NCBI GenBank assembly: GCA_963281255.1
Contig: OY725505.1
Location: forward strand, 2,852,001-2,916,000
Length of the DNA: 64,000 bases
From: Aphrocallistes beatrix
Taxonomy: Eukaryota; Porifera; Hexactinellida; Sceptrulophora; Aphrocallistidae
Direction: 5' to 3'
The translations under genes and the position numbers were made by a program. Every line of letters starts with the position of its first letter. The first letter of the stretch is position 1. Below are positions 33,701-42,700 of the stretch, piece after piece. Under the pieces are notes generated by a model, which was not told the DNA's origin, ran no database searches, and saw nothing but the letters and a program-made list of their open reading frames with translations.

Positions 33701-36700
33701 TCCGAAGTCATACGCCTAAATGGGCGCCACCATTTTTCTACGCCCCTAGACTCTGCATTTTTATATATGTTTTATGCCGCGCGCCTAAATCATACGCCTA
33801 ATTATGATCCATGGGACCAAATACGCGACTCTAGGCGCGCCCAGTACGCCTGGATGAAATCCTGCATACAACTCACAGCAGCAATAGACGGTTTCTTGTC
33901 GTCGCCAGCAGGAGGATGTGTGACGTCTGCTCCCAAGAAGATGACAGGCTGATCAAACACGGGAGGCCTACACACATTTCACATAAAATACATACATACA
34001 TACTACATACTACATACTACAGTCGACTCCGCTTAATTGGGTCACTGTTTAATCGAGTCACTTTTGGCAGGATCGGAATAGCTCTCACACATAGAAGCTA
34101 GTCCAAAATATTTTTGGTTAATAGGGTTCTCCGCTTAATCAGGCCAAAATGTCCTCTGACCGACGTGACCCTATTAAGCGGAGCCGACTGTATATGATGC
34201 ACAGCTGTGCATTACGATAAAAGTTCTAGATCGTAGCAAATCAAAGTACCGTTTTCGAACAGTAAATATCACATAAGAACTCTAGGTAACTGTTTAAATC
34301 ACAATTTAAACCACCAAATGACAATGCAGATTATCCATCCAACGAGTAAAATACGCATGAAAATATTTAGTTGTGTTTACATAAATTTGTCGCATCATTA
34401 CCATTCAATTACTAGTGTAATTAATGACTGATCGATTTCAATGTGACATGACGTAACCACACACCTAATGACAGGCTGTAGAATGCTGTTCACTCCTCCC
34501 AGCTTCACGTTAATCTTGAGACAGAGGTTGGAGAGTGTTTGAGGAGACAGCCTGACTACATTCCGAGTCTGTACACACTGAGTGCAGACACCTAGTAGAG
34601 TATCTCCCACTCGCTTCACTTCAGCTAGAAACATACAACCTGATTACACTCCATCATGTTGATGATATTATATCGCAATAATGGACCATGGATAGAGGCA
34701 TATCCAATCAATATAGGGTGCGGCACAATAGCATTGAGTTTGGCCTACAGGCGTAACTATTTTGACTTTTTCATGGTTAGCTGGGGTGACGAGATTTGTA
34801 AACATATATCAAACTAATGTGGCATGCCACCACAAGTCAACATAACATTTAGGTCTGAGGTGGCACGCTACCCCTGCCACCCCTGGAGTTAGGCCTATGG
34901 TTTGGCCTTGGGACCTCACTACGTCTGACTAAAGATTTCGCGAACTCATTTTTGGATAAGCATACACTCCAACCGTCCCGTTTTTTTACTCTTCTATTGA
35001 ACTAATTTTTACGAATGTCCCGTTTTAATATGAAATTCCCCCATTATATCCCACTTTTATCATGGCTCAAGTTGGCATGTGTGGATAAGTCATTTTGAGC
35101 GGGAATGCCATGGAAGATATTTTCAAGATTTCAGGTGTATATGATATTAATTCCGTATTTTATCATAATATCGAAATAATTTGGCTTAAAAATGTGGTAA
35201 ATGATAATTATAATTATTGTTGCACCTCCAGCGGTTTCGTGCTTGTATATTTTAATGCTGGTGAGCAAATGGATTCGCTCAATTTTCACATCTCTCGTTG
35301 GTATTCATTTAACCTGAATTATCAGTATGTCGACTATGTAATTCATATACCGTAAACTGGGGCGACTTTGGCCCTAAGAGGACTTTGTCCCATAATAGCA
35401 ATTTTAATAAAATATACTCAAACTATAATATTGCGGTTTAAATATCTTTGGCTATATTGAGAGTTTCATTCAACATATTATCAATGTAATTACATTGATT
35501 TATAAGTTTGAGTATATTGCTATTGTGGGACAAAGTCACCTCTTAAGGCCAAAGTCGCCCCAGTTTACGGTGTTAGGTTCTAAGACTCTTCTCACCGTAT
35601 ATGGGAGTCTTTCCTGGGAGAATAACGATGACTAATTGCAGCGTTGGGTAGTTGCGTCGTAGCATCTGGAACAGCGACTCAACCTTAAAGTTGCATTAGA
35701 GAATAAAAAGAATCACTAACATCACATACAGGGAATGTAAAAATCTAAAATTGTTTGTATGTGAAAACGATGCTTTGATTGAGAAAGACCCAGAGTGTTA
35801 TTCTGATAATAAATACACTCGAACCTCTCTTATCCGGGCAGTGCCGGACCGGAGGGTGCCGGGATAACAGAATTTGCCCGGATATCAGAGGTCCGGATAA
35901 GAGGGGTTCCCGTAACTCAGAAATCAACTTGAATAGCAGTTTATAGTGTTACAACTGTCAATTTGTATAATGGGTGAGTTTAAACAATATCTATCGCCCG
36001 GAGCTTAGAGGTTATCAAAATTCCGGATAAGAAGGTGATAGTAAAATAGATATTCTATAAAGGAAAAGAAACTATTCCATTGCGATTGATTAATAGATTT
36101 AAAGCAGTATTTAGCCACGAATATATTAGATGTCTCTAGCCTATTTTTGTAAATTGTTTACTTTATGTATCCTTTGTAAACAAAAGTAAACAAAAAATTT
36201 ATCATATCGATCTGAAAATATGATATTCGTAATCTATACCCCTAAAACCCCATGTCAAACGTTGGAATTTAGTCTCTAGCCTATTGTTGAGATTTGTTTA
36301 CTTTATGAATCTAATGTAAACAAAAGTAAACAAATAGTTATCATATCGATCTGAAAATATGATATTCGAAATCTACACCCCTAAAAACCATATTTCAACC
36401 GTTGGAAGCAAGTTTCTAGCCTATTTTTGTGATTTGTTCATTTGTATTCTCAGCATGCTGCAATTTAATTCTCAGCATGCTGAGGTTTAATTCCCAGCAT
36501 GCTGAGATTTATTTCTCAGCATGCTGGGATTTAATTCTCAGCATGCTGAGATTTATTTCTCAGCATGCTGCGATTTAATTCTCAGCATGCTGGGATTTAA
36601 TTCTCAGCATGCTGAGATTTAATTCTCAGCATGCTGAGATTTAATTCTCAGCATGCTGAGATTTAATTCTCAGCATGCTGCGATTTAATTCTCAGCATGC

Positions 36701-39700: not shown

Positions 39701-42700
39701 AATTCTCAGCATGCTGAGATTTAATTCTCAGCATGCTGGGATTTAATTCTCAGCATGCTGAGATTTATTTCTCAGCATGCTGCGATTTAATTCTCAGCAT
39801 GCTGAGTTTTAATTCTCAGCATGCTGGGATTTAATTCTCAGCATGCTGAGATTTATTTCTCAGCATGCTGCGATTTAATTCTCAGCATGCTGAGATTTAA
39901 TTCTCAGCATGCTGGGATTTAATTCTCAGCATGCTGAGATTTAATTCTCAGCATGCTGGGATTTAATTCTCAGCATGCTGAGATTTATTTCTCAGCATGC
40001 TGGAATTTAATTCTCAGCATGCTGAGATTTATTTCTCAGCATGCTGAGATTTAATTCTCAGCATGCTGAGATTTATTTCTCAGCATGCTGGGATTTAATT
40101 CTCAGCATGCTGGGATTTAATTCTCAGCATGCTGCGATTTAATTCTCAGCATGCTGGGATTTATTTCTCAGCATGCTGAGATTTAATTCTCAGCATGTTG
40201 CGTTTCAATTCTTAACATCTCTGCAAAAAAATGGAAAACAATTTTTCACACCTTTTCTATACTAAATAAAGGACTACACTATCACAATAGTAATCATTGT
40301 ACGACACTACAATAGATCGTCATTGTTTTTAGTACTTCAAAGCCACAACTTACGTTTGATATCTTAAATGTATTATAATGTATGGCAATAAAAATGATTA
40401 TATGCATATTTTCACACCTTTATATACATATTTTCACACCATTTGATGAATTTTGAAAATAATGCTAGAGACTAGCTTCCAACGGGTGACATGGGGTTTG
40501 TGGGGGTGGAGATTTCGAATATCATATTTTCAGATCTATATGATAAATTATTTGTTTACTTTTGTTTATAAAGGATACATAAAGTAAACAAATCTCAAAA
40601 ATAGGCTAGAGACTTGCTTCCAACGGGTGACATTGGGTTTTCAAGGGTGTAGATTTCGAATATCATATTTTCAGATTAATATGATAAATTATTTGTTTAC
40701 TTTTGTTCACAAAGGATACATAAAGTAAACAAATCTCAAAAATAGGCTAGAGACTTGCTTCCAACGGGTGACATTGGGTTTTCAGGGGTGTAGATTTCGA
40801 ATATCATATTTTCAGATTAATATGATAAATTATTTGTTTACTTTTGTTCACAAAGGATACATAAAGTAAACAAATCTCAAAAATAGGCTAGAGACTTTCT
40901 TCCAACGGGTGACATGGGGTTTTCAGGGGTGTAGATTTCGAATATCATATTATCAGATCCATATGAGAAATTATTCGTCGACCTTTGTTTACAATATTTA
41001 TTTAAAGGAAAAAATTCCATAATATGTTTGAATGAGTGATTCCAGGCGCCTGCAGGGCGACTCTGAGGACACGCAGTGTCCGCAAGCCGCGTAGCGCAAG
41101 CAAGCGAAGCGTGCTTGTATTGACTAAATGTCGAAAGGGCTGCCCGATTGAGAGAGGTGCCCGGATATCGGAGGTCCTGATAAGAGAGGTTCGAGTGTAT
41201 TTGTGAAATGCGCGAATTTTAAAAGAAATTAAAACGTTTAAATTGGATAAAAATGCTTTTAGGAATTGAGAGAATTTTGATCAAAAGTATGAATGAACAA
41301 AACTAATAGAATTTAGACTTTTAGGACTAGGGATACGTATGGAGGTATGGCATATTGCAATTTTGTGTAAACTAAATTTATGAATCACAAAGCTAAGCCT
41401 AACCTTGTCAGCTCCTGAAGTGTATTGGAAGAGGCAGGGATGAGGAAAGAAGTTCATTCCAGCGTCATGACTGATCTTGTGGAGATGAGAAATGAATGTT
41501 CTACACAATACAATACAGTGAACTTAATTGAATAGCACAGGATTGCATGTAGAATAGGAATGTATTCCTACACATTCCACTAGGGATTAGGATCTTTCGA
41601 TCCATGATCGAAAGATCCGGATCGCGATCCTTTTTTTGAGGATCGAGATCGGATCGACGATCCTTTTTAAAAGTAGTATCGGGATCGGGATCGGATCGAA
41701 ACTTTTACTGATCGATCTGATCCTTTTTCTTTTTAATCCCCAAGTTGGAGGTGAAAGTGTTGAAATTTATGTTGATTAAATATATTTTAATGTGTATTAT
41801 GGTTTGAGTACTAACTTAAGCACTATGTACGTCCTAGGCTGCCGCAGACGGACGGACATTGCACGCCGTCCATGCCATAAGGCATCTCCTTCCAGGAGCT
41901 GTACTAAAAATGATAGTCTTCTGACTATTATTGAAAGGATCTTTTTGGGGATCGTGATCGGATCGAATATCCTGTTATAAGTTAGGATCGGGATCTGGAT
42001 ATAGATCCTTTTTTTGAGGATCGACTAATGCCCTACATTTCACTTCATCATGCTGAATGTAAAGTCTTGTATTGAATATTAAAATGTTTTGTATGCAAAA
42101 AATCTTCAATCTACGTATTTAGGGTATATTTGAGGCAGAATAATAATTTTTGTGGATATAGTGATAGGACAGGGATTATGGGGCACATGATCACGATATT
42201 CATCGAGATTACTATGGAATATCATCGACGAAGACTGATCAACCTATCTCCAATAAATCCTGGAAATGGAACAATCTCATTCTGGAATAAACATACATGC
42301 CAACTTGAGCCATGATAAAAGCGGGACGCAATAGAAAAGTACTATACATAGGAATAAAAAAAACGGGACATAATAATGGAGGAATTTCATGTAAAATCGG
42401 GGCACTCGTGAAATTTAGTTCAATAGAAGAGTGGAAAAGGAGGGACGTCCCGCCAAAAACGGGACAGTAGGCATGTATGTATCCAGACCATGGAACAGAG
42501 ACTGAGTGTAAGGTAGTGCAACTGACTTTATAGCTTCCTCTTTACAATTCCTGCTGGTAGCGAAACACAGCAACGCCCAAGTCTTCACGACAGTGCTGTG
42601 GTAGAACTGCTTGTTCCGCATGTCCCACACTCCCTTGTCCGGTTGTATGGGGATCACGGACTAAAGAGATAAACACGTAACACCATGGTGACATCAGATA

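Follow-up and report, generated by a model that had tools for sequence, protein, structure and literature searches.

The 64,000-nucleotide stretch analysed here (hereafter the window; Aphrocallistes beatrix, Hexactinellida, assembly GCA_963281255.1, contig OY725505.1, positions 2,852,001 to 2,916,000) carries, on its minus strand, an Argonaute gene with an intron that includes a long array of a 22-bp satellite. Judged by its sequence organisation, this array forms the centre of several nested mobile sequences: the satellite lies between inverted arms of a Helitron-like element, here called A, and these in turn lie within a second element with terminal inverted repeats (TIRs), here called B, which resembles a miniature inverted-repeat transposable element (MITE). 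The nested element (35814-41199) occupies about 94% of the host intron. The features of the locus, some of them delimited with Tandem Repeats Finder (TRF), are as follows, in window coordinates.

31728..50036, minus strand: modelled part of the Argonaute gene (N, PAZ, Mid and Piwi), from tblastn with intronless paralogues, spliced alignment and phmmer.
41404..41500, minus strand: Mid-domain exon upstream of the intron, ending TSGADK, from one of three spliced models (query L006) and the argonaute-2 alignment.
35684..41403, minus strand: host intron of 5720 bp, phase 0, donor GTTAGG, acceptor AG, containing the whole nested element, from the spliced model and the in-frame exon join.
35596..35683, minus strand: Mid-domain exon downstream of the intron, from all three spliced models and the argonaute-2 alignment.
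35814..36134, plus strand: left part of element B (TIR element/MITE) with TIR TACACTCGAACCTCTCTTATCCGG; window 35809-36134 matches positions 2-333 of the short copy L052 at 91%.
36132..36438, minus strand: left arm of element A, with its 141-bp tandem repeat in about 2.2 copies, inverted relative to the right arm, from TRF and self-BLAST.
36446..40212, plus strand: 22-bp satellite array, a single array of 171 units, from TRF and a unit count.
40213..40455, plus strand: core segment of element A, 243 bp, adjoining the array, from genome matches.
40456..41017, plus strand: right arm, in which the 141-bp repeat recurs about 4 times (TRF 3.8), from TRF and BLAST.
41018..41118, plus strand: 3' end of element A with terminal stem-loops, common to five array-free A copies.
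41118..41199, plus strand: right part of element B with the inverted TIR, 95% identical to L052 437-518.

The gene was placed by tblastn with intronless Argonaute paralogues from the same genome, and runs from about 50.0k down to 31.7k. Its exons were modelled by spliced alignment with three paralogue queries; most exons are concordant from about 46.0k downward, and several 5' exons are discordant. The two exons flanking the array intron join in frame (TSGADK-VESLFQ), the same as in argonaute-2. The joined protein matches argonaute-2 structures, which we take to be human chains, with 1263 bits over 767 residues (phmmer). In the argonaute-2 alignment the motifs around D597, E637, D669 and H807 are kept, these being, we assume, position numbers of human AGO2. 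From these features the host looks like a slicer-type Argonaute with an intact-looking coding frame. The initial annotation of this DNA, made from the letters alone, had placed the array inside an Argonaute intron, and the minus-strand gene with its intron at 35684-41403 in the spliced model bears this out. The same annotation had numbered it intron 13, a number that the gene model does not confirm; the array intron is approximately the 11th in the modelled part, with 5' exons that differ among the three models.

Elsewhere in the genome, 11 Argonaute/Piwi copies have a single-frame Piwi domain (477-1016 aa), on C1, C3, C7, C8, C11, C13 and C16, four of them consecutive at C13:444-460k. By their open frames, these copies are an expanded intronless Argonaute set beside the intron-rich gene of the window. 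One Piwi paralogue scores 436.7 bits against Piwi-like protein 1 and 394.9 bits against Piwi-A, a sponge protein. In the mitochondrial cox1 frame tryptophan is encoded by TGA (14 TGA, 0 TGG), and AGA occurs where serine is usual, a pattern that points to the invertebrate mitochondrial code. The 3' exons of the window gene, together with downstream DNA (window 31001-32860), are duplicated at C19:2796-2798k (L045) with 87-96% identity, about 87 kb away and in the opposite orientation. The next intron of the same gene contains an inverted repeat of about 220 bp (35349-35571) that is 72% self-complementary and is perhaps another MITE.

For the array itself, TRF (36446-40212) and the register count of 171 units agree with the approximately 171 copies first reported at 36447..40210. 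The commonest unit, ATTCTCAGCATGCTGAGATTTA, accounts for 92 of the 171 units when these are counted in a 22-bp register. A perfect 14-bp palindrome, CTCAGCATGCTGAG, had been ascribed to every unit, which proved too broad: it is present in 101 of the 171, the rest being units with a GG end (41), with a CG end (20) or otherwise different (9). The window has 101 exact 14-mers of this kind, every one inside the array. The commonest unit pairs with itself at 20 of 22 positions, spacer TTAA included, a level reached by 1 of 5000 letter shuffles of the same unit. This wider self-complementarity had been missed, as had the inverted 141-bp repeats flanking the array. An RNA of 1500 nt from the array, read in the Argonaute sense, has a predicted fold of -944.6 kcal/mol (-0.63 kcal/mol per nt), against -391 to -396 kcal/mol for three two-base-block shuffles. 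With such a strong predicted fold, the earlier idea that the array RNA could form hairpins or long double-stranded RNA is physically sound. The array also contains an exact internal repeat of 644 bp, at 36528 and 37848 (spacing 1320 bp), which suggests a recent local duplication.

On both sides the array is bordered by pieces of element A in opposite orientation. Self-BLAST gives an inverted match of 36132-36438 to 40895-40587 on the minus strand, with 89.0% identity. The 243-bp core of A has 40 scored matches at 92-100% identity, among 2011 candidates from a first look at the genome. Five array-free core copies (L046-L050) all end in the same 3' stem-loop. In four of the five, ATCTTATATATTAAAATGCTAGG is found at the 5' end of the copy itself, and in L046 it is far upstream; four of the five are approximately 0.77-0.98 kb long, with 2-3 copies of the 141-bp repeat. 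In the window, 41061-41121 is predicted to fold into two stem-loops (-26.0 kcal/mol), the 3' palindrome that belongs to the definition of Helentrons and HINEs.

The Helitron_like_N domain (PF14214) has 106 matches genome-wide, of which a single one, with an open frame longer than any other, was read (C2:4495.7-4509.5k). The element there, at C2:4499.2-4508.8k and here called the partner, carries the 5' end of A (33 bp at 94%, 118 bp at 86%) and, approximately 9.6 kb downstream, its 3' end (84 bp, 87%). It also has one open frame of 1970 aa that encodes a Rep domain (PF14214, E 2e-58), a PIF1 helicase (PF05970, E 1.1e-78) and an OTU domain. Non-autonomous A therefore has its termini in common with a Rep/helicase element, as Helentrons and HINEs do, and the Rep and PIF1-type helicase of the partner agree with a Helitron-like rolling-circle element in the broad sense. 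The partner is presumably autonomous. Its locus (L056/L057) also seems to contain a short minisatellite 3' of the main frame, with repetitive frames.

The narrower assignment of A was examined through its ends. Subterminal inverted repeats (subTIRs) were sought by comparing the first 150 bases with the last 120 for an 11-bp inverted match of at most one mismatch, and were present in 0 of 5 elements (four A copies and the partner). With two mismatches allowed, such a match is present in 5 of 5 elements and also in 31-38 of 60 shuffles; the longest exact inverted word in L049 is 6 bp. The bases outside the set ends of L047-L050 are A/A, A/A, T/C and T/A; counting the final T of each element as host DNA would turn two of these four into T/T. 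An endonuclease domain was absent from the 1970-aa partner frame, the downstream frames of that one partner being inspected by eye, without a search. A as a HINE proper was rejected on the missing 11-bp subTIR with at most one mismatch. Because of this missing subTIR, the mixed bases outside the ends and the lack of an endonuclease in the frame searched, we file A as Helitron-like and not as HINE, although it works like a HINE.

Element B is a dispersed family of its own. When up to two mismatches are allowed, the genome has 154 forward and 166 reverse matches to its TIR, and 0 to the pattern read backwards. Among the matches listed, many form TIR pairs approximately 0.3-0.5 kb apart, that is, short copies with inverted ends; two such short copies that were read, L052 and L053, lack the insert. 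The window element has TA at both outer edges. The composite on C17 likewise has TA/TA, and that on C6 has TA and TG.

Eight arrays were read, namely those of the window, C4, C12, C6, C17, C11, C1a and C1b, the last of these being cut at its left end. As the loci were found through the exact motif or unit, arrays made only of variants may be missing from the set. The genome contains 421 exact 14-mers, of which 419 are in the eight arrays, and the backward-read pattern gave 0, so that the motif is much more frequent than chance would allow. A arms are found inverted on both sides in five of the eight arrays (window, C12, C6, C11 and C17, where the right arm begins after a gap of 1.9 kb). C4 has an arm on the left only, and C1b, with its left end cut, on the right only. 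The window, C17 and C6 have a common order, B-141(-)-SAT-core(+)-141(+)-A3(+)-B, in which 141 is the 141-bp repeat, SAT the satellite and A3 the 3' end of A. When the outer flanks of these three loci (0.4-2.0 kb each) were compared between loci, none of the 12 comparisons gave a match. Since three loci have a common B-bounded composite but unlike outer flanks, the composite has probably transposed.

The arrays differ widely in how many perfect palindromes they contain. Counted per GCATGC, which is itself within the palindrome, so that units without it (4 of 171 in the window) fall outside the denominators, the values are 101/167 for the window, 62/85 for C4, 73/241 for C12, 42/295 for C6, 61/197 for C17, 75/311 for C11, 4/134 for C1a and 1/389 for C1b. 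In six of the eight arrays, fewer than 1/3 of the units keep the perfect palindrome. This wide spread, from 1/389 to 62/85 units, argues against selection for the 14-bp palindrome, which was rejected as an explanation. The variant unit of C1a and C1b is 18-20 of 22 self-complementary under another alignment; this may reflect shared ancestry or a weak constraint that acts on self-complementarity itself.

With high confidence, we interpret the window array as a satellite that came into the Argonaute intron inside a nested, non-autonomous transposon. The history would have three layers. In the first, A would have taken a head-to-head form, probably by a rolling-circle route, with the 22-bp satellite between two inverted and partly deleted A halves. 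In the second, and the nesting order is the one we consider plausible, this A-satellite-A unit would have entered B once, replacing approximately 103 bp of it, and the B ends would then have carried the composite to new loci. In the third, one composite copy would have entered the intron between the two Argonaute Mid-domain exons, where the length of the satellite would afterwards have been altered locally by duplication. The position in Argonaute is most likely chance, the gene being one of the eight loci whose arrays were read. The most likely effect on the gene is none beyond an intron of 5.7 kb instead of approximately 0.3 kb, its neutrality being presumed. Besides its regulatory idea, the initial annotation had offered a passive intronic satellite as an alternative, and this fits better, with the array as the payload of a transposon that has relatives at other loci.

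Several observations weigh against this origin. At C1a no A arm adjoins the array, and pieces of A come no closer than 1.5 kb; no B was found at five of the eight arrays (C1b being cut at the left). An additional piece of A lies to the right in the C6 composite, and the three composites thus differ in detail. The TIRs of B are not tied to a transposase, though DDE_1 genes are present (150 genome matches). The 644-bp exact repeat could reflect an effect of assembly instead of a duplication. Finally, the partial Argonaute duplicate at C19:2796k was tried as an empty site and rejected: it includes the last exons only (window 31643-32860, 87%) and, as the intron region is not part of it, is uninformative on the insertion.

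Other explanations of the array were weighed against the same evidence. A satellite that grew within the intron itself, with no tie to a transposon, would account for the 644-bp exact repeat, which points to local expansion, and for the array on C1a, which stands without an adjacent A arm. The window array, however, is enclosed by inverted A arms and B ends, in the same order as at two other loci. In our reading, the common composite order together with the unlike outer flanks refutes in-place expansion for this array, and we regard it as the least probable of the explanations considered. Foldback elements have inverted tandem-repeat arms around a centre, and the locus shows just this geometry, so that a simple foldback (FB/Galileo-like) TIR transposon, with the 141-bp repeats as long arms and the satellite as the middle, was also considered. 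Yet the 141-bp repeats are found in A copies that lack the array, run in one direction and end like Helitrons, an element with the ends of A encodes Rep/helicase, and in the window it is B that supplies the outer TIRs; a foldback origin is highly improbable and was rejected.

A functional feedback was also considered, and the resemblance of the host gene to a slicer-type Argonaute speaks for it. The initial annotation had suggested that the array could produce small RNAs or affect Argonaute splicing in a feedback loop, an idea that gained no support from this analysis. Here hairpin RNA from the array would be diced and loaded on this Argonaute, and would act on the array-bearing pre-mRNA or limit its splicing. 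The 20/22 self-complementarity of the commonest unit and the predicted fold of the sense RNA (-0.63 kcal/mol per nt) are what such a loop would use, the A arms would contribute further inverted repeats, and the C1 variant arrays retain 18-20 of 22 self-complementarity under another alignment. On the other side, the satellite is also present at seven other loci read, six of them bordered by A arms on one side or both, and perfect palindromes range from 1/389 to 62/85 units by array. We consider the feedback very unlikely. In a further version, self-complementary RNA of kilobase length from the intronic array would be diced and loaded into the encoded Argonaute, giving a self-limiting loop made by transposition, which would also silence other array-bearing elements; this, too, is a highly improbable outcome.

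The nested transposon, our preferred explanation, offers a concrete route of dispersal, in which a near-palindromic satellite between head-to-head Helitron-like arms is carried by a TIR element of another class. How satellites come to settle at new loci, introns included, can be tested on such a vehicle of three layers. As the long hairpin-forming DNA is in a gene of the RNA interference pathway, the tolerance of the pathway gene itself for such RNA becomes measurable. In the literature searched, the exact 14-mer CTCAGCATGCTGAG had no match. Head-to-head satellite Helitrons nested in a MITE were not found in the literature searched, mostly by title and the start of the abstract, and for minisatellites in Argonaute introns nothing was on point by title among the matches listed.

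Other features were observed in the window. A second tandem array, at 17516-18519, has a 17-bp unit, TATCACTATATCCAATA, in 59 copies; it is open in more than one frame, with a 346-aa frame of simple repeats. Open frames at 21670-22917, 25106-26319 and 28613-29845, of which the minus-strand ones are nearly alike, presumably encode coiled-coil and NHL-repeat (TRIM-like) proteins. A run of 200 N is present at 27115-27314.

The element can be compared with several known systems. MITEs and TIR elements of mariner/pogo type use TA target sites. Like MITEs, B has short inverted ends, array-free copies of approximately 0.33 and 0.5 kb and TA edges, its superfamily being a candidate assignment; unlike usual MITEs, it carries a satellite insert of 4.9 kb. 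Foldback elements of the Galileo type have long inverted arms with tandem repeats; in the present locus each arm is half of a Helitron-like element, and both are enclosed in a TIR element of a different kind.

For A, the closest relatives are Helentrons and their non-autonomous derivatives. DINE-1/HINE elements and Helentrons have ends in common with a Rep/helicase element, a 3' stem-loop and, in some copies, tandem repeats, and the families are defined by subTIRs of 11 bp or more (PMC4067079). A is similar in its common ends, stem-loop and tandem repeats, and differs from the Helentrons described there in having no 11-bp subTIR and no endonuclease domain seen in the 1970-aa frame of one partner. 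In the Pacific oyster, the Cg_HINE are non-autonomous Helentrons with a 3' palindrome and satellite-like central tandem repeats averaging 140-180 bp; they are dispersed, some within other transposons, with copies in non-coding regions of genes (PMC7492417). That study was limited to repeats of 100-500 bp, and reports that each array always has one orientation relative to its flanks (PMC7492417). Like the Cg_HINE described there, A is Helitron-like and non-autonomous, with a central tandem repeat and a 3' palindrome, and is dispersed and nested in a transposon. Unlike them, it is present here as two head-to-head arms that enclose another satellite, a near-palindrome of 22 bp, and it has no 11-bp subTIR at up to one mismatch. 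Satellite-carrying Helentrons are thus known; what did not come up in the literature searched, mostly by title and the start of the abstract, is the head-to-head doubling around a near-palindromic 22-bp satellite and the joint carriage of the whole inside a TIR element.

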